Of a stretch of DNA of 41,461 nucleotides, positions 597-41,461 are shown piece after piece (position 1 is the first letter of the stretch; each line of letters starts with the position of its first letter). The stretch is from a virus. The translations under genes were made by a program, and so were the position numbers. Under the pieces are notes generated by a model, which did no database searches, had not been told where the DNA came from, and was given only the letters and a program-made list of their open reading frames with translations. The stretch lies in IMG/VR virus record IMGVR_UViG_3300046011_003786, positions 1-41,461 of that record; one strand, written 5' to 3'.

Positions 597-617
597 TTTA
601 ACATATAAAGGGGTTTT

Positions 618-794
618 GTGGATAAGATTTGTATTCAAGAGTTGGTCAAGAGATTGACTGAGGATTATATTCCATCAGGTGTTGAGATGATTGATGTACT
701 AGAACGTACTGAGTTCCAGAGGGGTAAGATAGCTGGAGTAGCTATGGTTATTGATAGCCTAGAGAGATTGGTTGAGGATTTGAATCGTGAGTAA
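618..794 (+). CDS. Small hypothetical protein, first rightward gene
   Basis: A 58-aa protein starting at GTG (618) after an AAAGGGG ribosome binding site. It begins MDKICIQELV and is mostly helical, with alternating charged and hydrophobic residues. Its end overlaps the acetyltransferase start by 8 bases, which suggests translational coupling. No family recognised. Being the promoter-proximal gene of the late operon it could be a small regulator, but nothing in the sequence proves it. Confidence 0.6.
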   Translation: MDKICIQELVKRLTEDYIPSGVEMIDVLERTEFQRGKIAGVAMVIDSLERLVEDLNRE

Positions 795-6568: not shown

Positions 6569-9354
6569 TGGCTCTAGTCCATAATAACCTACTCAGTATC
6601 TTCTCTGGGGTAAGTAAGCAATCGCTTGACCAAAGACTACCAAACAACTGTGAGGAGATGATTAACGCATATCCTACAATCTCAAGTGGTGTTAGACGTA
6701 GAAATCCTACAGTACAAGTAAATACAAACACTCTTATAGAAGATAACCAATTCGTTCATAGCTACGACAGAGGATTGGCTGGAGAGTCATCCGAGCAATA
6801 CATCATTACGATTGATAGGGTTAATGGTCTTAGGGTTATGGATGCTTCTACTGGACAGTATAGAACTGTGACGTATAGTGGTAGTGCATTGAAGTATCTT
6901 GAGTCATCTAATCCAGAGGTAGGGTTCTCAGCACTGACTATTAAAGATACTACATTTATAGCCAATAAGGATATTATTCCTGAAATTATAGGAGATGGAA
7001 CTACAACTACATTTAACTATAAGTCAATTAATGTATCAACTACTGGATATAGTTCTGTATATTCAACATTAGATTCTACAGCTGTAGATAACAATATATC
7101 GTCAATTAAAAAGAATTTAGCTCCAGCAAGGATAAAGACGTATACTGGACTAGCTCCAGCATATATTAGTGTTGAAGTTCTACCAGATGTACAAAGAAGA
7201 CAAAAAGTATATAATAAAGTAGTATATGCAGACTCAGCAGAAGGAGCTACAACAACTATTGTAGTTGATGGAGCAAGCATAGTATACAAAACATCAGTAT
7301 CTCAAGTTGGATTAAACTATTATCCTGAGTCTATATTTGAATATAGAACAAACATTTATTCATTGCTAAGTGGCAAGTTAGATAAAAGTAAATATAGAGT
7401 TCTACTTGGAACAAATGGAGCAATAGAGATATATAAAATTGATGGAACTGCAATAACAACAACAACATCAATTACGTATCCATCAGACGTAACTGCTACT
7501 CCTCCAGCTATGTCACAAGATATTCAATCATGGTCTGTTGTATCATCTGCAAATTTAGGCTCAGATGCAATAGTTAATGTAACGTCATCAACATCATCTG
7601 GTAAAACTTCCAATGCTTCAACGTATGATAAAGAATCGTATATATGGATTAAGTACGCAAGTGTAGACCCTGCTTTCCCATATTCATACACTTGTACTCT
7701 ATATAATACAGATGGAACTACAATCAGCTCACATACATATAGTGGAATTAACTCTGATACTATTGCTGCTAGTTTTGCTACTTGGGCTAATGGACTAACT
7801 GGATTTACTGGTGTATCAAGTGGAGCTATCGTAAAGATTAAACGTACAAGTGGAGCAGACTTCACTATCGTTATGAGTGACAGTTATGGTAATCAGGGTA
7901 GTTATGCTTGGAAGGGTGTTGTTACTTCTATGGGAGATTTACCTAAGCATTTCCCATATAAAGATACTATCGTAAAGGTAGATGGTATTCAGCGTAATGA
8001 TGACGTTGCATATTGGGTAAAGTATAATGGAACTCAATGGGCTGAGTCTATTGACCCAACAATGAATAATGTGATACTTGACTCATCTATGCCACATAAG
8101 CTAGTGCGTAATGCTGACTTTACATTTACGCTATCATCTATTGAATACGATGATATCCTAGTTGGAGATGCAAACTCACAAGCAATTCCAGAGTTCATTG
8201 GCTCTCCTGTTAAAGACTTATTCTTTGTGAATGGTAGATTTGGTATCTTAACCAAGAATGGTATATCGCTAAGCCAACAAGGTGAGTTTACTAACTTCTT
8301 CAGAACAACAGTATTGACCATGCTGGATGATAGTGCTATTACTACTTACATTGATAGCAATAAGTCTGTTGGTCTTGAGTATGCTATAGAGATGCAAGGC
8401 TCTATTGTATTGTTTGGTGATAAGCAGCAGTTTGTTATTGATGCTACAAAAGGTATTACTCCATCTAGCCTTACAGTATCTCCTATATCTGGGTATGAGA
8501 TTAATAAAGCAGTTAGACCTATTTCTATTGGAAACTTTATCATATTTGCTTCACAAGTTGGTGACTACTCATCATTAATGGAGATGAGCTTAGAGACATT
8601 AACAGCTAATATTAGAGCCACTGATATATCATCCCATGTTCCAAACTATATTGATAAAGATTTAACAACACTAGTTGGCTCAGAGAGAAATAGCTGTATA
8701 TTCTTAAGAAGCAAAACAAATAGAGACACAATATATGTTTGGAAGTATCATTTTGAAGGAAATGAGAATAAGCAATCAGCTTGGAGTAAATGGGTATTTA
8801 GTTATGATATATCTTCTATTGTTTCATTTGACAGATATCTATATCTGCTAGGAAAAAGATATAATGCTACAGTACCAACAAGTGAGTTTACATTCTCTGA
8901 TACAATAGATTTTTCAAGAAGTATAATCTTTGAGACATATATATCATATGGAGCTATATTGGCTAATCCATCATACGAGAAGATTGATATTGACCCATAT
9001 AGTGTTACATCTACATTTAAAGATAATGGTACTGTAATCTATAATAGCGAGATAGAACTATCTGAATGGTCTTTAATTGACAAGCAATTAATTAAAGAGA
9101 TGAGGGGAACATTGCTAGTAAAAACTGCTATGATTTCATCAGTAGAAGATAGTAACTTTAACTTGGTTGTTGAAGATAAAGAACGTGGAACAGTTAGAAC
9201 GATTCCAGCTGTATATACTGTAGATAGAAAGCCATACATATCTGGTAATTCTAAGAACATGAAAATTAAAATCAAGTCTGTAAATGGCTATGGATTTCAA
9301 ATTAATGCTATATCACTAGAGGGACAATATAATGGTCGCTCAACCAAATTATAA
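6568..9354 (+). CDS. Tail tubular protein B (nozzle), T7 gp12-like
   Basis: A 928-aa beta-rich protein, somewhat longer than T7 gp12 (794 aa). The N-terminus (LPNNCEEMINAYPTISSGVRRRNP) matches the conserved opening of nozzle proteins. Segments such as VNGRFGILTKNGISLSQQGE and NFFRTTVLTMLDDS fit the beta-propeller blades, and the C-terminus with GYGFQINAISLEGQYNGRS is the usual end. It forms the tail tip channel and the fibre attachment surface. The extra length lies mainly at residues 180-460, a Thr/Ser-rich insertion. Confidence 0.9.
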   Translation: MALVHNNLLSIFSGVSKQSLDQRLPNNCEEMINAYPTISSGVRRRNPTVQVNTNTLIEDNQFVHSYDRGLAGESSEQYIITIDRVNGLRVMDASTGQYRTVTYSGSALKYLESSNPEVGFSALTIKDTTFIANKDIIPEIIGDGTTTTFNYKSINVSTTGYSSVYSTLDSTAVDNNISSIKKNLAPARIKTYTGLAPAYISVEVLPDVQRRQKVYNKVVYADSAEGATTTIVVDGASIVYKTSVSQVGLNYYPESIFEYRTNIYSLLSGKLDKSKYRVLLGTNGAIEIYKIDGTAITTTTSITYPSDVTATPPAMSQDIQSWSVVSSANLGSDAIVNVTSSTSSGKTSNASTYDKESYIWIKYASVDPAFPYSYTCTLYNTDGTTISSHTYSGINSDTIAASFATWANGLTGFTGVSSGAIVKIKRTSGADFTIVMSDSYGNQGSYAWKGVVTSMGDLPKHFPYKDTIVKVDGIQRNDDVAYWVKYNGTQWAESIDPTMNNVILDSSMPHKLVRNADFTFTLSSIEYDDILVGDANSQAIPEFIGSPVKDLFFVNGRFGILTKNGISLSQQGEFTNFFRTTVLTMLDDSAITTYIDSNKSVGLEYAIEMQGSIVLFGDKQQFVIDATKGITPSSLTVSPISGYEINKAVRPISIGNFIIFASQVGDYSSLMEMSLETLTANIRATDISSHVPNYIDKDLTTLVGSERNSCIFLRSKTNRDTIYVWKYHFEGNENKQSAWSKWVFSYDISSIVSFDRYLYLLGKRYNATVPTSEFTFSDTIDFSRSIIFETYISYGAILANPSYEKIDIDPYSVTSTFKDNGTVIYNSEIELSEWSLIDKQLIKEMRGTLLVKTAMISSVEDSNFNLVVEDKERGTVRTIPAVYTVDRKPYISGNSKNMKIKIKSVNGYGFQINAISLEGQYNGRSTKL

Positions 9355-28355: not shown

Positions 28356-28770
28356 TGTTATCCTTTTGAAGTTGTAGTGCAATGCTGATATACCATCCAC
28401 TACCCGACTATATTTCTACCACGTCAGACCTAGATTGTGTAGGTGTCCTTAATGATTTATCAGTAGGCATAAGCCTTTAATCAACCAATATTATTGGCTC
28501 ACTAAAGGTGATATAGCGAATGACAGTGAAACATTCCTATATCGTGACTAAATCTTTAGACTTTTATTTAAAAGTTTATCACTGTAAGTTTTTTGATAGC
28601 TAATACATCGTGCTATCAGCGATGATAACAGTTGCAATCTCAACCAACTGAGACCACTGCTATACGATTAAACACACATAGATTGGTTTGTGACAGTATC
28701 TTCTCTAGATAACTGTATTGATTTCACCAATACATGTAAAGATGCAATCAATACAACCATCCTAAGATGG
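28356..28770 (-). other. 415-bp gene-free stretch packed with hairpins
   Basis: No convincing ORF. Successive inverted repeats include 28465-28476, 28474-28508 (CCTTTA / TAAAGG around CCAAT / ATTGG), 28510-28543 (GATATAG plus GAATG stems), 28560-28575 (ACTTTT / AAAAGT), 28595-28617 (GATAGC / GCTATC), 28612-28629, 28638-28653 (TCTCA / TGAGA), 28693-28716, 28714-28734 (perfect 7-bp stem) and a 5-bp hairpin right after the thyX stop. At least one pair (28612-28629) is better paired as RNA from the minus strand through a G-U pair. It could be a structured leader, a small RNA or a replication element. Confidence 0.55.
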
Positions 28771-32072: not shown

Positions 32073-32471
32073 TCACGACCAGGGATTGTCTTCTTCTGCT
32101 GGAGCTTGTGACGATTGACTAGCAGTTCGTACATGAGCCTTAACAGTAGTAGAATCAATAACTAGAAATTGATTACCTTTTACTTCCTTGTCATCTTTAG
32201 TATAGTTATTAGGCACAAAGAATCCATCTGCTTGTAGCATACCATCTCCAGCACTAATCAATCCGTATACACGTTTACCTTCATCAGGTGACTTGATTTG
32301 AATCTTAATATCAATTGGTTTACCAAATACTTTGTTACCGTCTTTGTCTTTACCATTTACTGATAGACCACATAGAATAGCTCCATTATCTGAAGTTCCT
32401 AACTTTTTGATTTCAAACTTACGGGTATCTTTATTCCAAGATGTTCCATTAAAATATCCACTAATTACCAT
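32073..32471 (-). CDS. ssb: Single-stranded DNA-binding protein
   Basis: 132 aa. An OB-fold-like beta-rich body (MVISGYFNGTSW, FEIKKLGTSDNG, KPIDIKIQIKSP) is followed by a Gln/Ser linker and an acidic C-terminal tip EEDNPWS, like the DDDIPF tail by which SSBs recruit partners. It is encoded right after two ERF annealing proteins and overlaps the second by 7 bases (start within GAATGG). It would coat ssDNA during replication and recombination. Confidence 0.8.
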   Translation of the reverse strand: MVISGYFNGTSWNKDTRKFEIKKLGTSDNGAILCGLSVNGKDKDGNKVFGKPIDIKIQIKSPDEGKRVYGLISAGDGMLQADGFFVPNNYTKDDKEVKGNQFLVIDSTTVKAHVRTASQSSQAPAEEDNPWS

Positions 32472-32899
32472 TCTGAATCCTTTGTTGTTGTTTTAGTTTG
32501 TGTTGGTTTACTTGTAGCATTTGTCTTTCCACTTGCATAGTTACCGTCATCATCTTCCGCTTCTAAGCCAAGTAATGATACTAGCTGATAACGTCTAGCA
32601 TATGTAACAGCTGAACCTAGTTGTTGCATGTCTTGTTTAGTCATAATCAATCTCATAACTGAACGTATCTTGCTATCAGGCTTGTCAGCATCATAAATCT
32701 CTGTAACTAATACATCTACACCATCTTGAATATCAGGTGACTGAGAGTAGCTAATGCCACATTCTTTTAGTGTTGGTGTAATAGCTTTAATGATACCATT
32801 AATGTCTGAATAGTTGCTCTTAAAGAAAGGATTTTTTGAGTCCTTTTTTACAGCATCAACACTTGATTGAAAAATTAACAATTTTGATTGTATTGACAT
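32465..32899 (-). CDS. ERF-family single-strand annealing protein, copy 2
   Basis: 144 aa. Lead helix QSKLLIFQSSVDAV, then NPFFKSNYSDINGIIKAITP and the ERF signature GSAVTYARRYQLVSLLGL followed by an acidic EDDDGNYA. The C-terminal linker TQTKTTTKDSEW ends the protein. ERF proteins anneal complementary ssDNA and can promote circularisation of phage DNA. It is the shorter of two tandem ERF genes and overlaps both neighbours. Confidence 0.85.
   Translation of the reverse strand: MSIQSKLLIFQSSVDAVKKDSKNPFFKSNYSDINGIIKAITPTLKECGISYSQSPDIQDGVDVLVTEIYDADKPDSKIRSVMRLIMTKQDMQQLGSAVTYARRYQLVSLLGLEAEDDDGNYASGKTNATSKPTQTKTTTKDSEW
32468..32504. repeat. 37-bp direct repeat, copy at the end of ERF copy 2
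   Basis: This segment encodes the TQTKTTTKDSEW tail of ERF copy 2 and the start region of ssb. It matches 33142-33178, inside ERF copy 1, with one mismatch in 37. The level of identity is far above that of the two ERF domains themselves, which suggests recent duplication or gene conversion. Confidence 0.85.
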
Positions 32900-33573
32900 T
32901 TGTTTTCTCCATATAATCTATATGCTGTACTCATACTGCATCCTAGATGTTTTGCTATCTTTGTGAAAGATATATTCTGATTTCTTAATTCAATAACTTT
33001 TAGTATAAACTCATCGTCGTAAGTTCTTATGCTTCCATTTATTGAACCCCACTTGCTTCCCATTGATTTTGCTACTTGTTTCTGTGTATCAGATTTTGGT
33101 ACATGAAAATCCCTATGCAAATTGTTTTCAGATTTTGTTACCCATTCTGAATCCTTTGTTGTTATTTTAGTTTGTGTTATTTCTTTACCATGCGTATTTG
33201 TAGCATCAGAGTCTTTTGTATCATCAATAGCAAATAAACCATTCATTGCATACTTTCTAGCATAAGATGATGTAGCTCCAGTTACTTGTGCTGAATCCAT
33301 ACCCTTCTTATTTTCCTCTTCTCTAGCAAACCCACTACCTTCTGCTACTAGCTCTCCATCTTTATCAAATAGACTAGCAGTTGCTTTAATATAATATCTG
33401 TCACCAAGAACCACTAGCTCATCACGTACAGTAACGCTACATTCGTGCTTTTTAATCAAAGGCTTCAGTCCTTCAAAAATATCTTCCAAGCTACGATACT
33501 TGTACTTACCAAATAAATTAAATCGGTTCTTAGGAGCGTTTAACTCAGACTGAATTGTGCTTAACAAACTCAT
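32875..33573 (-). CDS. ERF-family annealing protein, copy 1, fused to a helix-turn-helix tail
   Basis: 232 aa from the ATG at 33573 (ATGA overlap with the upstream gene). Residues 1-130 are an ERF domain: FGKYKYRSLEDIFEGLKP, ATASLFDKDGELVAEG, and GATSSYARKYAMNGLFAIDDTKDSDA. A TQTKITTKDSEW linker follows, after which about 90 residues are added: a basic stretch and a helix-turn-helix (FILKVIELRNQNISFTKIAKH, LGCSMSTAYRLYGEN) typical of homing-endonuclease DNA-binding tails. The extra part ends just after the start of ERF copy 2. Confidence 0.82.
   Translation of the reverse strand: MSLLSTIQSELNAPKNRFNLFGKYKYRSLEDIFEGLKPLIKKHECSVTVRDELVVLGDRYYIKATASLFDKDGELVAEGSGFAREEENKKGMDSAQVTGATSSYARKYAMNGLFAIDDTKDSDATNTHGKEITQTKITTKDSEWVTKSENNLHRDFHVPKSDTQKQVAKSMGSKWGSINGSIRTYDDEFILKVIELRNQNISFTKIAKHLGCSMSTAYRLYGENKCQYNQNC
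33142..33178. repeat. 37-bp direct repeat, copy inside ERF copy 1
   Basis: Matches 32468-32504 with a single mismatch. In ERF copy 1 the reading frame runs on through the DSEW codons into the helix-turn-helix tail instead of stopping, because the TGGTAA of the other copy is TGGGTAA here. Confidence 0.85.
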
Positions 33574-33689
33574 TTTGTAGCTCTCCATTCTTCATAAGCT
33601 TTAATCACTTCTTGTGGTTCAATACCAAGCTTTTGACTTACTGCATAGAATGACATACCACTATTAAGTAGCTTCATAATCTCTTCCAT
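33570..33689 (-). CDS. Small helical, HTH-like protein
   Basis: 39 aa, ATG after AAAGGATATATT. MEEIMKLLNSGMSFYAVSQKLGI has the spacing of a helix-turn-helix (helix, GMS turn, AVSQKLG recognition helix), followed by EPQEVIKAYEEW. It overlaps ERF copy 1 by ATGA. It could be a tiny DNA-binding protein, but size alone limits confidence. Confidence 0.6.
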   Translation of the reverse strand: MEEIMKLLNSGMSFYAVSQKLGIEPQEVIKAYEEWRATK

Positions 33690-33699
33690 AATATATCCT

Positions 33700-33864
33700 T
33701 TACTTCTGATGAGACGATAAACCGTCTTCATATTCTTTGATTAAAATCTTAAGCATACTAACCATTGAACGGTCTTCTGTATCAGCCAATGATTGTAGCT
33801 TATTCTTTACGTCCAATGGTAGTCGTACCAATGAACTACCCTTTGATTTCTCTGTATCCTTCAT
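33700..33864 (-). CDS. Ribbon-helix-helix-like protein
   Basis: 54 aa, ATG after AAAGGAGGAATTTAACT. SSLVRLPLDVKNKLQSLAD and DRSMVSMLKILIKEYEDG have the strand-helix-helix layout of Arc/MetJ-type DNA-binding proteins: an alternating strand SLVRLPL, helix A, then helix B. It overlaps the upstream gene by 29 bases. A regulator of the ERF/SSB operon is plausible. Confidence 0.65.
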   Translation of the reverse strand: MKDTEKSKGSSLVRLPLDVKNKLQSLADTEDRSMVSMLKILIKEYEDGLSSHQK

Positions 33865-34257: not shown

Positions 34258-34536
34258 AATATATCCTTTGTGAATATTTGAAGTTTCCTTCATTGAGCAT
34301 CATATCCAACTACCCCTACGCTGATTAAGCGCTAATGCAATAATCACTTGCAATTCAGTTAGAAGCATTGACACTCAATGAAATAAACTTATTTAACAAT
34401 AGACAGCCTCTTGGAAATTAATCCGCAACATCTCTTTGATGTTTCATATTTGAAGGCAAGTAAATCAAATAACTCATATCAGAAGAGATAAACTCAACTG
34501 ATACTGATATTATACTCTTGTAAACCAAAAGTAAAC
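34258..34536 (-). other. Gene-free stretch with hairpins and a promoter
   Basis: No convincing ORF. Inverted repeats: 34336-34352 (TGCAA / TTGCA, 7-base loop), 34366-34380 (CATTGA / TCAATG, 3-base loop), 34427-34443 (AACATC / GATGTT), and 34477-34503 (TATCAG aa GAG ATAAA CTC aa CTGATA, a symmetric interrupted stem). A TATAAT at 34509-34514 would start leftward transcription so that all of these lie in a leader of about 240 bases. Confidence 0.5.
34509..34514 (-). promoter_or_regulatory. Candidate leftward promoter (-10) downstream of the helicase-primase gene
   Basis: TATAAT on the minus strand, preceded at 16 bases by GTTTAC, a partial -35. It would drive the ERF/SSB/RusA block independently of the genes upstream. 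The weak -35 keeps confidence moderate. Confidence 0.45.
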
Positions 34537-36675
34537 TTAATCTTTGTAAGATTTTTCTACAATTAACATAACTTCTTTATCAAAATTATGTTTATTCCAA
34601 TAGCTTTCATCAATAGACAATGCTATATCATGTAAGCTATATAGCCATTCCTCTGCTTCATCTTTGTTCATAAGCAATTTATCAACTGTTGCTAGAGCTG
34701 CTTTAGCTAATAAATTAACTGCTCCAGTACCTTGTTTGGCTACCTTGATAATCTCTTGCTCAAAGTATGCTTTCAATGCTCCACCACCACTAGGAACGAA
34801 TGGAGTAATATGTTTTCTATTCTCCTTCTTCTCTTTAGGGATAAGCTTTGCTACTTCAAACTTCTTCTCACAAGAACCAAACCATATATCATCAGTAGGA
34901 TTGCTATAATAGATATGAGCCTTATCGAAACAAGCTTCGTCAATCTTTACCGAATAGTATCTTGCAATGTTAGACATAAACTCTTTGTATATCTCAGGTG
35001 TAGTTGATATGTATTTATCAGCCAATAAGATAACTCTAAATCTATCCCCTATTGCTCCATTCTTTTCCTTTTGATGGTTTCTAGTAGGTGCTATGATTGC
35101 ATAATGTTCTGCAAATAATTCCTTAGCATAATCCATGCTCATACCATCATCTACATCAAGTACAATCATATTGGTTAGTTGTTGAGCTGATTCATTATTA
35201 CGCTTACCACCTTTGAATTCAACAGGAGCATAACAGATATTCTCTCCAGTAATCCAGTGAGGTATCTCTTCAAACTTCATCTCTCTTTTAACATATCCAT
35301 CACCATGGTTAAACTTACCATTTATAGGCATAGAGTAGCTCATAATACAACTATCACTATTGGTTGATATTAGTTGTCTAATCTTTACAGACAGCATACT
35401 TCCAATCTCCATACACTCGTAAGCATCACCATGTTTGTATGATAAATCCTCTAGCTCTCCAAAGTGAACCTTGATAGCTTTAGTGCTTGTGCTTGGATAG
35501 ATACCAAAGTCTAATGCTTCATTAGTATCTACAAATCGATTTAAGCCACGTAGACGTAAATATAATCGTTCTAGCTTAGATTGCCCCTTGATTATACGTT
35601 TGAGGCTCTCAGTGCTATTTACGGTAAGATTAATGGCATATTCTACATCTTTAACAGATACAGACTTATTCCCACTAATGAAAGCATATAATCCAGCCAT
35701 CTTAACGCACTTGAAATGTCTTCCATTGTACTCAGCACTAAGGATGCTGTCTTTGAACTCATTAGCTAAAGCTTCTGACTCTGCTTTAAACTCATACATC
35801 ATATCCTTTGCATCTTCATCCATAGTTAGCACTAGACCTTCATTATCAGGTACAATTAGCTCTAGCAGTCGCTTAGCAGTAGTTTCTGCATTCTTATGTA
35901 GTTCGCTAGCCTTAGACTCTAATTCTCGCATTTCCTTACCAGTTAGCAAGATTGGCAACTTATCATCATCTTCTCTGAAAAAGAAACTACGTCTAGCTAA
36001 TCCCGATTGCAACTTACTTCTAAATACATCTGCAATAGCATCATTAAGCATTAACGCTTCATATGTTCCAAACCCAAAAAAGTTAGGAGCTACTCCAAAC
36101 ACTTGTGCTTTAGTCTTCTCAGACTTAATAGCTTTAGTAGCCCATATGCCATTATCATAGCTAGTAAATAAGTTATCAATCATCTCTTGTTTTGCTGATA
36201 TGAATTTGTCAATCTCATCTACCTCAAAGCTTGGTGAACCAAACTCTAAGTCGAATAAGGTTTGGGCTAATGAAGTCATACCTGCTTCAGTAGCGTTTCC
36301 TACTGTTGGTTGCCATACGCTTAGCCCCATAGCTGCTTCATCACGCTCTTTACCCTCTGCAAAGCTAGATAGATATATCTTACGTCTATTCATAAAGACC
36401 TTATTTAGTCTGTCATAGATAGCATTGAAGTACCAATTGTTTAGGGTATCTAATGAGCTATTCTTTCCTCCACCTGATTGTAGTAATAGTACAGAATAGA
36501 AATTAATAGGAGCTGGATTCCTACCTCCTTGGTAATCAACCTTAATCCTCATATTTGATGCTATTGTAGCTAGTTTATAGTTAGCCATCATAGCACTTGC
36601 CTCTAGCTCAATCTTTGGGTTTAATGACATTATTCCCTCAGCCATCTCATTTACTATTGGATGATACTTATTCAT
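34537..36675 (-). CDS. DUF3987-like helicase fused to an AEP/PrimPol-like domain
   Basis: 712 aa. Residues 1-380 look like the DUF3987 RecA-type helicase: NFYSVLLLQSGGGKNSS is a Walker A with Asn after Lys in place of Ser/Thr, SFEVDEIDKF a Walker B, and ANEFKDSILSAEYNGRHFKCVK the lid helices. Residues 480-610 resemble an archaeo-eukaryotic primase core: IVLDVDDG (acidic metal site), GDRFRVILLADKYIS, KIDEACFDKAHIYYSNP (the D...C.. P region seen in viral primases). The usual order is primase first; here it is last. It is the main replication protein here. Overlaps the methyltransferase by 4 bases. Confidence 0.68.
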   Translation of the reverse strand: MNKYHPIVNEMAEGIMSLNPKIELEASAMMANYKLATIASNMRIKVDYQGGRNPAPINFYSVLLLQSGGGKNSSLDTLNNWYFNAIYDRLNKVFMNRRKIYLSSFAEGKERDEAAMGLSVWQPTVGNATEAGMTSLAQTLFDLEFGSPSFEVDEIDKFISAKQEMIDNLFTSYDNGIWATKAIKSEKTKAQVFGVAPNFFGFGTYEALMLNDAIADVFRSKLQSGLARRSFFFREDDDKLPILLTGKEMRELESKASELHKNAETTAKRLLELIVPDNEGLVLTMDEDAKDMMYEFKAESEALANEFKDSILSAEYNGRHFKCVKMAGLYAFISGNKSVSVKDVEYAINLTVNSTESLKRIIKGQSKLERLYLRLRGLNRFVDTNEALDFGIYPSTSTKAIKVHFGELEDLSYKHGDAYECMEIGSMLSVKIRQLISTNSDSCIMSYSMPINGKFNHGDGYVKREMKFEEIPHWITGENICYAPVEFKGGKRNNESAQQLTNMIVLDVDDGMSMDYAKELFAEHYAIIAPTRNHQKEKNGAIGDRFRVILLADKYISTTPEIYKEFMSNIARYYSVKIDEACFDKAHIYYSNPTDDIWFGSCEKKFEVAKLIPKEKKENRKHITPFVPSGGGALKAYFEQEIIKVAKQGTGAVNLLAKAALATVDKLLMNKDEAEEWLYSLHDIALSIDESYWNKHNFDKEVMLIVEKSYKD

Positions 36676-37523
36676 TTTAATCCTTTAAAAATATGAGCTA
36701 CAACATCAACTGTCCAACCATTTCCTATGGCGTGATACCTATTGTAATTTGATACTCCACTTGTATATCCAATTGGTATCGTGTTAATTGCCTCACATTC
36801 TTCTGGAGTTAAAAACCTCCACTTGTCTCTATTTTTATTTCCTATGGCATTTGCTTCATCTATGCTTGGTTTGTTTTCAGTAATATATTTCATAAATTCC
36901 GAATCTGTAAAAACTATTTGTCTACTACCTCTGTATAGATACCTTCTTAGATTTGAGCCTTTCCCATACATAGCATCTATGCAAAATGACTTATCTCTAT
37001 CACTTACAGCATCTACAAGAACATCATTCAGTGATATTCCCTTGTCTTCAGGCTGGGTAACATTTGGTATATTTGTCCAATAGCTCCTCTTCCTTAATCC
37101 AGCTGATACAAGGGAACTATTGATACTAATTGGTTTTACGCCAAGCTGAGAAGATATAATATCTTGAAACTCCTGCTTCATATTTACATTCTCAAGCAGA
37201 AAATACTTCGGTTTAACTAGCTTTAGAACCCTTACATACTCAAAAAATAGAACACTTCTTGGGTCTGCAAAATTTAATCCTTTACCAGCAGAACTGAATC
37301 CTTGACATGGGCTTCCTCCAATTAACAGGTCTATGTTTTTAATTGTTTTAATATCTCTAACATCACCAATCTGAATTGTATTTGGGTAGTTATTCATTGT
37401 GATAGATATTGCACTAGGCTCCACTTCACTTGCGAAATAACTATCCACTTCTATGCCTGCTCTTTCTAATGCTATTTGACCACAACTAATTCCATCAAAT
37501 AGACTTAGTACATTTACTCCCAT
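36672..37523 (-). CDS. DNA (cytosine-5) methyltransferase
   Basis: 283 aa with all main C5-methyltransferase motifs in order: I (SLFDGISCGQIALERAG), IV (GGSPCQGFSSAG, catalytic C73), VI (ENV at 111-113), VIII (GLRKRSYW), IX (RFLTPEECEAINTIPIG) and X (YHAIGNGWTVDVVAHIF). The target-recognition region between VIII and IX is short, about 80 residues. No restriction enzyme gene is adjacent, so it is an orphan, likely protecting phage DNA from host restriction. Target unknown. Confidence 0.93.
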   Translation of the reverse strand: MGVNVLSLFDGISCGQIALERAGIEVDSYFASEVEPSAISITMNNYPNTIQIGDVRDIKTIKNIDLLIGGSPCQGFSSAGKGLNFADPRSVLFFEYVRVLKLVKPKYFLLENVNMKQEFQDIISSQLGVKPISINSSLVSAGLRKRSYWTNIPNVTQPEDKGISLNDVLVDAVSDRDKSFCIDAMYGKGSNLRRYLYRGSRQIVFTDSEFMKYITENKPSIDEANAIGNKNRDKWRFLTPEECEAINTIPIGYTSGVSNYNRYHAIGNGWTVDVVAHIFKGLK

Positions 37524-37834
37524 GGTGATACCTCCTTGCTAATATCTTCTTGTATGCTTGAAAGAACGTTATCTAATGAGAATTTATCTGTTCTATCTTT
37601 ACTTCTTGCTTCTAATATCCTGATAACATTAAATGCTTTTTCTAAAGAATCAGTTTCAACGCTATTTGACATTAACGCTCTACTTGAATAGTCGTATACT
37701 AACTTTATGCTGTAATACCCATTCTTTTTTATCTTCATCATAGAAGTACCATAATAGTCTTCAACCTTAAAATCACCGTATGGTTTAAAGTGATTCATTA
37801 ACTGCTTGTGTATGTTCTCGTCTTCTGCTTTCAT
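37514..37834 (-). CDS. Hypothetical protein
   Basis: 106 aa: charged N-terminal helix, beta-rich centre (MMKIKKNGYYSIKLVYDYSS) and a helical acidic tail. It overlaps the methyltransferase by 10 bases and the upstream ribbon-helix-helix gene by 50 bases in another frame. No family recognised. Confidence 0.7.
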   Translation of the reverse strand: MKAEDENIHKQLMNHFKPYGDFKVEDYYGTSMMKIKKNGYYSIKLVYDYSSRALMSNSVETDSLEKAFNVIRILEARSKDRTDKFSLDNVLSSIQEDISKEVSPWE

Positions 37835-37955
37835 CTAATATCAACCTTCTTACTTCTTGACTCATTGAGCTAGAATTTTTTTCAGCTAAATATTTTAGAA
37901 TTGAAATCACATTAGCATCAAGGTTAATCATAACACCCTTCTTCTCTTGCTTCAT
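37785..37955 (-). CDS. Ribbon-helix-helix transcriptional regulator
   Basis: 56 aa, beginning MKQEKKGVMINLDANVI. GVMINLD is the strand, NVISILKYLAEKNS helix A, and SMSQEVRRLILDESRRR helix B, the classic Arc/MetJ/ParG layout. It is transcribed away from an origin-like region carrying an iterated repeat and a palindrome, its likely binding sites. The last 16 codons overlap the next gene in another frame. ATG after AAAAAGGAAATAGA. Confidence 0.72.
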   Translation of the reverse strand: MKQEKKGVMINLDANVISILKYLAEKNSSSMSQEVRRLILDESRRREHTQAVNESL

Positions 37956-38030
37956 TCTATTTCCTTTTTATTTAGTTCATTGCAATGATACAACTATATA
38001 CCTTAAGCTATATAAAATTTGTATATATAA

Positions 38031-38078
38031 TATAGGTAAGGTATAGGTATAGGTAAGGTATTGGTAAGGTAAGGTAGG
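38031..38078. repeat. Tandem 11-bp iterons
   Basis: Contiguous units TATAGGTAAGG (38031-38041), TATAGG (38042-38047), TATAGGTAAGG (38048-38058), TATTGGTAAGG (38059-38069) and TAAGGTAGG (38070-38078). The 11-base period matches one DNA helix turn, so bound proteins would lie on one face. Confidence 0.85.
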
Positions 38079-38125
38079 AAACACGTATATACCCTAGTGG
38101 TTACCCTCGTGGGTCGTAAGATGAA

Positions 38126-38142
38126 CGTACGATTATCGTACG
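38126..38142. promoter_or_regulatory. Perfect palindrome, operator-like
   Basis: CGTACGA-TTA-TCGTACG: 7-bp perfect arms with a 3-base centre, followed by no T run. It lies between the 38-aa membrane gene and the iterons and upstream of the ribbon-helix-helix gene. Dimeric ribbon-helix-helix proteins bind such short inverted repeats, so autoregulation is plausible. Confidence 0.6.
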
Positions 38143-38160
38143 ACAAATTACTTTAAGGTT

Positions 38161-38277
38161 CTATTTTCCAGTAAATAGGCTAATAAAACCAACTATTGCC
38201 ACAGCTAAAATCCCTATAACAATTGGCAATAAATAAATCCCAATTACAAATCCCATTCCAGCTAAAACCCATTCCAT
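38161..38277 (-). CDS. Small hydrophobic membrane protein
   Basis: 38 aa, beginning MEWVLAGMGFVIG and ending FTGK, nearly entirely one or two membrane helices. ATG after AAAAGGATAGCAG. It could be a small holin-like, superinfection-exclusion or membrane-tethering protein; its place next to the origin candidate gives no decision. Confidence 0.7.
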   Translation of the reverse strand: MEWVLAGMGFVIGIYLLPIVIGILAVAIVGFISLFTGK

Positions 38278-40814: not shown

Positions 40815-40940
40815 TCATACTCCTTTACTTGCACTATATGGAGCTATGAAATAGCCTTCCATTATCTTGGCTATTACTTCGTTAGCCATAACTCTAACTT
40901 GCACTTCAGGACGTATTCCTTTATACATTAAAACAGACAT
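40815..40940 (-). CDS. Small hypothetical early protein
   Basis: 41 aa, ATG after AATAGGAGTTTATT. MSVLMYKGIRPEVQVRVMAN then a helix EVIAKIMEGYF. First gene downstream of the leftward early promoter. No family recognised. Confidence 0.65.
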   Translation of the reverse strand: MSVLMYKGIRPEVQVRVMANEVIAKIMEGYFIAPYSASKGV

Positions 40941-41180
40941 AATAAACTCCTATTTAAAGTCATAAGACTATATTTGGATTAACTCCATACAATACACATA
41001 ATGTGAACTGTAACAATTAATCTTATTAGGTTATGTATTCTCATTAGTTCTAAACTAATACATAATAGGTAATCTCTTAGTTCTTTATGAGAGAGATTGG
41101 TAAATCAATTAACTTGTTAGATAAGCTATTTCTTTCTAACTGTGATAGTATTACATATGTTAACTTAAATAATACTGAAG
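40941..41180 (-). other. Long early leader with stem-loops
   Basis: About 235 bases between the promoter and the first start codon, with no ORF preceded by a ribosome binding site. Stem-loops: 41031-41065 (TTATGTA / TACATAA outside, TTAGT / ACTAA inside), 41071-41098 (AATCTCT / AGAGATT) and 41116-41140 (GTTAGA / TCTAAC). It may protect the early mRNA or regulate it. Confidence 0.5.
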
Positions 41181-41209
41181 TTATACTAAAATATATATAA
41201 TTTGTAAAA
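41181..41209 (-). promoter_or_regulatory. Leftward early promoter
   Basis: On the minus strand TTTACA (41209-41204) and TATAAC (41186-41181) with a 17-base AT-rich spacer: one mismatch per hexamer to sigma70 consensus and ideal spacing. It is the best candidate for host-driven early transcription of the leftward operon. Confidence 0.65.
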
Positions 41210-41334
41210 GAATTTATTGATAGTGATTATTGATTAGGTGGTTTTGTTTTGAACGCTATATATATGTAACGTGTGAGAGGATATGTGAGAGAAAAATTGA
41301 TAAGCAAAAACTATTCCAACTTTGTTTACCATTA
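41210..41334. repeat. Gene-free segment with short iterated repeats up to the closure point
   Basis: Contains TTATTGAT twice (near 41214-41234) and GATAAGCAAAAACTATTCCAACTT near 41298-41321, which is repeated imperfectly at 41336 (equal to position 2) as AATAAGCAATAATCATTCCAACTT and again in weaker form near 138-160. The 37-base step between the first two copies suggests a protein-binding or packaging element. No ORF seen. Confidence 0.5.
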
Positions 41335-41461
41335 CAATAAGCAATAATCATTCCAACTTCTTAATCAACACCAACATCATTCGCACCCCGATAGAATGGA
41401 GGTTTTAGATGAGTCTGGGATATGCCTATGGGGGAAAATGAAAATGCAACTAGGGCGGAAA
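41335..41461. repeat. Terminal direct repeat, right copy
   Basis: Exact copy of bases 1-127; see the left copy. The segment is more G-rich than its surroundings toward its 3' end (CCTATGGGGGAAAATG), so it may be a recognition element in its own right, independent of the assembly overlap. Confidence 0.9.

Follow-up and report, generated by a model that had tools for sequence, protein, structure and literature searches.

The 205-nt intergenic region at 37956-38160 is most likely the control region of a replication operon combined with a theta-type origin, a reading to which we give about an even chance. The window (the whole stretch of DNA analysed) comprises 41,461 bases, of which 1-127 are identical to 41335-41461, an exact 127-bp terminal direct repeat. 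Because the start is repeated exactly at the end, the record maps as a closed circle of 41,334 bp; the 127-bp overlap appears to be of the size expected from the assembler's k-mer overlap. The origin/control reading is supported by arrays with a pitch of about 11 bp, by an unstable A+T tract, by the position, which heads the helicase-primase operon, and by the presence of comparable arrays at initiator genes in other phages. An earlier note had proposed an origin/partition control region: these observations sustain origin and control, while partition was given up, no ParA-type ATPase having been recognised among the ORFs searched. Iteron-type control regions are of a known kind; the replication module around this one is unusual. 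The features concerned are:

37956-38160: intergenic region of 205 nt, between the 56-aa gene and the 38-aa hydrophobic ORF
38161-38277 (-): 38-aa hydrophobic ORF, the upstream neighbour, which bounds the intergenic region on the right
38114-38143: three 8-bp self-complementary boxes, TCGTAAGA, ACGTACGA and TCGTACGA, at 11-bp pitch
38090-38112 (+): two 12-bp direct repeats TACCCTMGTGG, TACCCTAGTGG (T) and TACCCTCGTGG (G), repeat D13
38031-38078 (+): GGTA/TACC array with eight GGTA, composed of TATAGGTAAGG, TATAGG, TATAGGTAAGG, TATTGGTAAGG and TAAGGTAGG
37985-38034: A+T tract, DUE-like, 84% A+T, from a nearest-neighbour scan of the circular genome
37996-38005 (-): array motif in inverted orientation, ATATACCTTA, which is TAAGGTATAT on the minus strand, across the A+T tract
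37785-37955 (-): gene of a 56-aa probable ribbon-helix-helix (RHH) protein, the first of the operon
37514-37834 (-): gene of a 106-aa protein without family match, overlapping the neighbouring genes
36672-37523 (-): C5-cytosine DNA methyltransferase gene (PF00145, E 3.7e-39; phrog_116, E 5e-58)
34537-36675 (-): gene of a 712-aa N4 gp43-like helicase-primase (phrog_2135, E 1.6e-72, full-length profile match)

Three repeat sets adjoin an unstable A+T tract

The GGTA/TACC array carries eight GGTA within 46 bp at a pitch of 5-6 bp (successive spacings 5, 6, 6, 5, 6, 5 and 5), which read as TACC on the other strand; TATAGGTAAGG is present at 38031 and 38048 and TATTGGTAAGG at 38059. The maximum in 100 order-3 Markov genomes was 4, and the cluster is well beyond chance. 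When any 4-mer with at least three different letters was considered, a count of 8 was reached in 1 of 100 simulations. The array had been described as contiguous 11-bp units. Repeat units are indeed present, but the 6-bp TATAGG at 38042-38047 breaks the run and eight GGTA describe it better. The inverted repeat I21 (TATACCTTA/TAAGGTATA) underlies the inverted copy of the motif at 37996-38005.

The three TCGTACGA-like boxes start at 38114, 38125 and 38136, an exact 11-bp pitch. Such a triple (three boxes inside 30 bp, none with more than 2 mismatches) occurs only once in the genome. Triples of equal quality based on any 8-mer occupy 3 distinct genome places against 0-2 in 12 simulations, so that the box array alone is only modestly significant. 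It was missed by a strict iteron scan, in which the first copy served as reference and 1 mismatch was allowed in all, and was found by the 8-mer triple scan. Two of the three boxes form the perfect palindrome CGTACGATTATCGTACG at 38126-38142, previously pointed out and confirmed here. Perfect palindromes with arms of at least 8 and a spacer of at most 3 number 3 in the genome and 1-8 in 20 simulated genomes; by itself this one is no more than chance, and it is better taken as part of the three 11-bp-spaced boxes, likely operator or iteron sites. A terminator scan also flagged the palindrome, a candidate dropped for its poor T run.

By nearest-neighbour scan, only one 50-bp segment of the 41,334-bp genome is less stable than 37985-38034. 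The tract announced as pure A/T does lie beside the array, but 38009-38034 includes one G, at 38021. On the TACC strand the order is: three TCGTACGA boxes, GGGTA/TACCC pair, TACC array, A+T tract, RHH gene and helicase-primase gene. The region presents two marks of the iteron type, repeats at a pitch of about one turn (TCGTACGA-like boxes three times at 11 bp, TACCCT twice at 12 bp, GGTA at 5-6 bp) and an easily melted A+T-rich segment adjoining them (37985-38034).

No DnaA box with at most 2 mismatches was found in 37956-38167, and a scan for sigma-70-type promoters gave none inside 37956-38160 on either strand. One perfect DnaA box (TTATCCACA) lies at 617-625 (-), where the plus-strand gene block begins.

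Other noncoding regions were compared. The large one at 40835-41334 is an alternative origin candidate, with the genome's least stable 50 bp (41182) and a 23-bp direct repeat. Single-strand folding of 37956-38160 (z -1.80) is predicted to be weaker than that of 34294-34536 (z -3.41; several short hairpins downstream of the helicase-primase gene) and of the noncoding 28401-28770, where a strong fold is predicted (z -3.17); neither of these two matched Rfam. GC skew, a check named in the earlier note, showed no turning point: raw skew tracks gene strand, and fourfold sites contain too few G/C.

A probable RHH gene heads a likely operon with an N4 gp43-like helicase-primase

The ORF at 37955-37785, on the minus strand, points away from the repeats, as had been stated for a small ribbon-helix-helix protein; that identity is only probable. 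Its best Pfam match is FitA-like_RHH (E 0.0023, 18.3 bits, sub-threshold against a cut-off of 27), and against the PDB it weakly matched designed Arc (E 0.076). The AF2 monomer model (pLDDT 90) has helices at 14-25 and 33-55. Foldseek and VIA gave no clear RHH match to this model, a null result that is uninformative because the chain is so small; a VIA match to F-plasmid TraM (4qpo_A; Z 3.3, rmsd 10.3) was too poor to be retained. Among 81 loci (80 of helicase-primase relatives plus L162), phmmer detected no RHH-like protein. A second small Arc/RHH-like gene lies at 33700-33864 (-), matching RHH_5 just under the cut-off (E 1.3e-5) and an Arc-like repressor PHROG (E 6.8e-6).

Since the genes of the 56-aa protein, the 106-aa protein, the methyltransferase and the helicase-primase overlap one another, the four probably form one operon headed by 37956-38160. 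The helicase-primase gene is thus in the same gene cluster as the repeats, and its product is a putative initiator.

The 712-aa protein has a full-length match to the N4 gp43 family with intact catalytic residues. With most N4-like relatives, among the matches listed, 86-99% of its length could be aligned; identity to the relatives in the multiple alignments is only 21-25%. In an alignment of seven sequences the Walker A residues S67, G68, G70, K71 and S74 are invariant, as are D507, D509, H534 and D579, which we take to be AEP motifs; in an alignment of 36, D507 and D579 are still invariant and D509 and H534 nearly so. Residues 1-363 of the AF2 model match MCM AAA+ domains (VIA Z 18.2 to 6mii_B, 281 aligned, rmsd 3.9). 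The VIA search covered this part; the AEP assignment comes from residue conservation instead of a matched fold. The protein is predicted to present an MCM-like AAA+ part first and AEP-type residues at 507-579 afterwards. It resembles the phage N4 gp43 family (Schitoviridae) in these invariant Walker A and AEP-type residues and differs in its low identity and in its setting, a T7-like-particle genome without recognised DNA polymerase. Fusions of MCM-like and DUF3987-type ATPases to AEPs have been described (PMC5862659). The literature searched gave no origin for the N4 gp43 family.

Comparison with known replicons

Iteron-type theta origins (plasmids, lambda O type) combine boxes at one-turn pitch, an A+T-rich unwinding region and an initiator gene nearby. 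The region studied here is similar in its tandem one-turn boxes beside an A+T-rich tract, with an initiator candidate near, and differs by the extra GGTA/TACC array between boxes and tract and by the lack of a DnaA box. It also recalls the bacterial basal unwinding system, composed of double-strand sites (DnaA-boxes), a short-period strand-directional repeat (DnaA-trios) and an unwinding site (PMC8287927). The same succession of putative double-strand sites, short-period directional repeat and candidate unwinding site is found here, but the pitch is 5-6 instead of 3 and the double-strand sites are not DnaA boxes.

In the Sulfolobus plasmid pRN1, ORF56 is presumably of RHH type, and the primase-helicase has AEP first, then SF3. 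As in pRN1, a small, probable RHH gene opens the presumed replication operon of the window, and the gene of a predicted primase-helicase fusion closes it. Two genes separate the probable RHH gene (sub-threshold) from the AEP-helicase gene. Unlike in pRN1, the helicase is of another type and the domain order is reversed, with the MCM-like AAA+ part (1-363) ahead of the AEP-type residues (507-579). Neither are iterons a hallmark of pRN1. According to the pRN1 study, the operon starts with the small repressor gene orf56 and ends with the primase-helicase gene orf904, the region upstream of orf56 is a promoter and essential control region, and the origin is an essential 100-nt stem-loop downstream of the replication gene (PMC4234260). 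In the window, the segment downstream of the helicase-primase gene (34294-34536) folds strongly (z -3.41), though into several short hairpins.

In pMV158 the order is dso-copG-repB. This plasmid carries three 11-bp tandem repeats (DDRs) and a hairpin (PMC9943647), and copG is cotranscribed with the downstream rep gene (PMC5717011). Three 11-bp-spaced repeats and a hairpin ahead of an operon for an RHH repressor and an initiator, both putative in the window, are shared by the two. As opposed to pMV158, which replicates by rolling circle with an HUH nickase, the ORFs searched gave no HUH/RepB family match.

GGTA arrays in other viral contigs

No direct DNA relatives of the region were found in phages, and a distant search of phages and plasmids yielded nothing beyond short matches of chance level (E 5 to 6). 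The helicase-primase, the exonuclease and the RHH protein as queries retrieved no relatives in viral contigs. A tail gene retrieved 5 short viral contigs, and the only match of their records to the region (26 bp, E 9.6e-4) was taken as noise. The methyltransferase retrieved 36 loci, and none of these matched any of the window's other replication-block proteins that were tested. Genome contigs searched with the helicase-primase or the tail protein gave nothing. No close relative covering the locus was thus found in viral or genome contigs.

An exact pattern of five GGTA at 5-6-bp pitch matched 15 contigs of IMG/VR, and one to four flanking ORFs were searched for 14 of these loci (all but L249). 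A replication-initiator gene lies at or around the array in 4 of the 15: L243 (phrog_9474, E 4.9e-23), L248 (phrog_16167, E 1.5e-4), and L245 and L091 (E 6e-25 and 1.6e-28, respectively, to the initiator of Paenibacillus phage Harrison). This count is uneven across loci, minus-strand ORFs having been re-read for L091 and L245 only; its P value is 0.0008 if the background is 3%, an assumed figure. The initiators of L091, L243 and L245 are homologous to each other and hence not independent. Near the remaining arrays we observed a phrog_4652 gene (L244, L246 and L253), terminase genes (L247, L253 and L256), a helicase (L255), RusA/endonuclease genes (L252), an anti-restriction gene (L254) and unknown genes (L250 and L251). 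Pure pentamer runs were present in the phage contigs L249, L254, L255 and L256.

In L091 and L243, 11-bp iterons with zero mismatches lie beside the array; the random-position control for iterons used at most 60 positions per locus, and positions less than 500 bp from the array were skipped yet kept in the denominator. In L245, CGTTACG-type repeats (iterons) and a TACC array both lie within the initiator ORF (7700-7960), where they encode VTDNA-like and LPYLTVPNLTLPY peptides. The order repeats, TACC array, A+T-rich tract (on the TACC strand) is common to the window, L091, L243 and L250. In L053, adjoined by a DnaD-like gene, the parts run the other way round on the TACC strand. This locus is outside the count of 15: it comes from a scan with the 15-mer GGTAAGGTATWGGTA and was chosen by eye after the hits had been ranked by GGTA count. 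The 15-mer has 112 exact matches in viral contigs, about the estimated chance number, so the scan alone means little.

None of 7 relatives of the L243/L245-type initiators, taken from isolates or databases, has the array, and runs of at least 5 GGTA or TACC in 46 bp were absent from the 116 loci of helicase-primase and methyltransferase relatives. Six window proteins showed no resemblance to the array-associated initiators (best E 0.034). We found no description of GGTA/TACC arrays in phage origins in the literature, among the matches listed. It is a tempting, if quite doubtful, idea that irregular GGTA/TACC arrays (5-6-nt pitch) recur in phage origins as a strand-directional element for unwinding or helicase loading, a phage counterpart of the DnaA-trios that would lie between the iterons proper to each replicon and the A+T tract and be used by unrelated initiators (DnaD-like replisome organisers, MCM-like/AEP helicase-primase). 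If true, the common TACC array would suggest an unwinding element in general use among phages.

Origin, operator or neutral repeat

The main rival, possible although on the unlikely side, is that the region is operator and promoter only: the arrays would bind the 56-aa RHH protein, perhaps with a second regulator, to autoregulate the operon, and the origin would be elsewhere (40835-41334 plus 1-174, or 34294-34536). The arrays are indeed directly upstream of the RHH start, and self-complementary boxes at 11-bp pitch would suit tandem RHH dimers, which occupy such boxes in Arc/MetJ-type operators. Moreover, the least stable segment and the strongest fold belong to the rival regions, and pRN1 has its promoter upstream of orf56 and its origin downstream of the replication gene (PMC4234260). 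These same points (the segment at 41182, the stronger fold downstream of the helicase-primase gene and the pRN1 layout) speak against an origin here, as do the missing DnaA box, the skew without turning point, the 0 of 7 initiator relatives with an array and the reversed order in L053. On the other hand, no sigma-70-type promoter was found inside 37956-38160 on either strand, similar GGTA arrays elsewhere sit at initiator genes, and a very unstable tract is unnecessary for an operator alone.

Two further readings concern the repeats themselves. Neutral slippage in a noncoding stretch, one of the few, could have enlarged the GGTA array as a microsatellite without any part in replication, which we hold to be improbable. 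The pure pentamer runs in L249, L254, L255 and L256 and the sporadic occurrence of arrays (0/7 initiator relatives) agree with slippage, but a pitch varying between 5 and 6 is not what pure slippage would leave, an extreme A+T tract falls together with three distinct repeat sets, and 4/15 arrays are at initiator genes (P 0.0008 at the assumed 3% background). Partition or plasmid maintenance, with an RHH centromere-binding protein on the repeats of a phage kept as a plasmid, is not supported and highly improbable. A small RHH protein does lie beside the repeats, and the second, Arc-like RHH protein weakly matches two PHROGs called 'partition protein ATPase' (E 0.006-0.007). Nevertheless, no ParA-type ATPase was recognised among the searched proteins, nor was there an integrase or prophage-repressor family match, apart from Arc/RHH-type and sub-threshold repressor matches on the two small RHH proteins.

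For the preferred reading, that of a control region plus theta-type origin, a working scheme can be drawn from the order of the elements. A double-strand-binding protein, either the helicase-primase or a partner, would occupy the boxes; the TACC array would act as a directional loading or unwinding platform, and the A+T tract next to it would melt. The MCM-like/AEP protein would then load at the melted tract, unwind and prime, and a host polymerase would extend. The 56-aa RHH protein may bind one array, the likeliest being the 11-bp boxes, and repress its own overlapping operon, by analogy with the small RHH repressors of plasmid replication operons.

Gene blocks and mode of replication

Profile searches identified T7-like head-tail, capsid, tail-tube, internal virion and terminase proteins on the plus strand. 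The minus-strand block encodes the N4 gp43-like protein, the C5 methyltransferase, a PD-(D/E)XK exonuclease and two Erf-type annealing proteins, with further RusA, HNH, thymidylate-synthase-like and MazG-like proteins. The ORFs searched gave no PHROG or Pfam family match to a DNA or RNA polymerase, neither to family A DNA polymerase nor to phage RNA polymerase, and the DNA polymerase B model, the sole polymerase model run genome-wide, had no match in the whole genome. As no polymerase was recognised, T7-type replication is unlikely, and a start by the phage helicase-primase with a host polymerase is plausible. A control region of this kind had been thought unexpected with a T7-like particle. 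The particle is T7-like as claimed, but the replication genes are N4 gp43-like and go without a recognised polymerase. If the origin reading is true, an N4-type helicase-primase, controlled by a small repressor, would start replication in a phage with a T7-like particle and no polymerase of its own, and the region would offer a compact origin for testing the N4 gp43 family.

In the same minus-strand block, the two Erf-type annealing genes (32465-33588, -) are adjacent and overlapping, perhaps as a result of duplication. On the plus strand, 1248-1829 encodes an aspartyl/asparaginyl beta-hydroxylase-like protein (PF05118, E 2.1e-13), next to an acetyltransferase-like gene.
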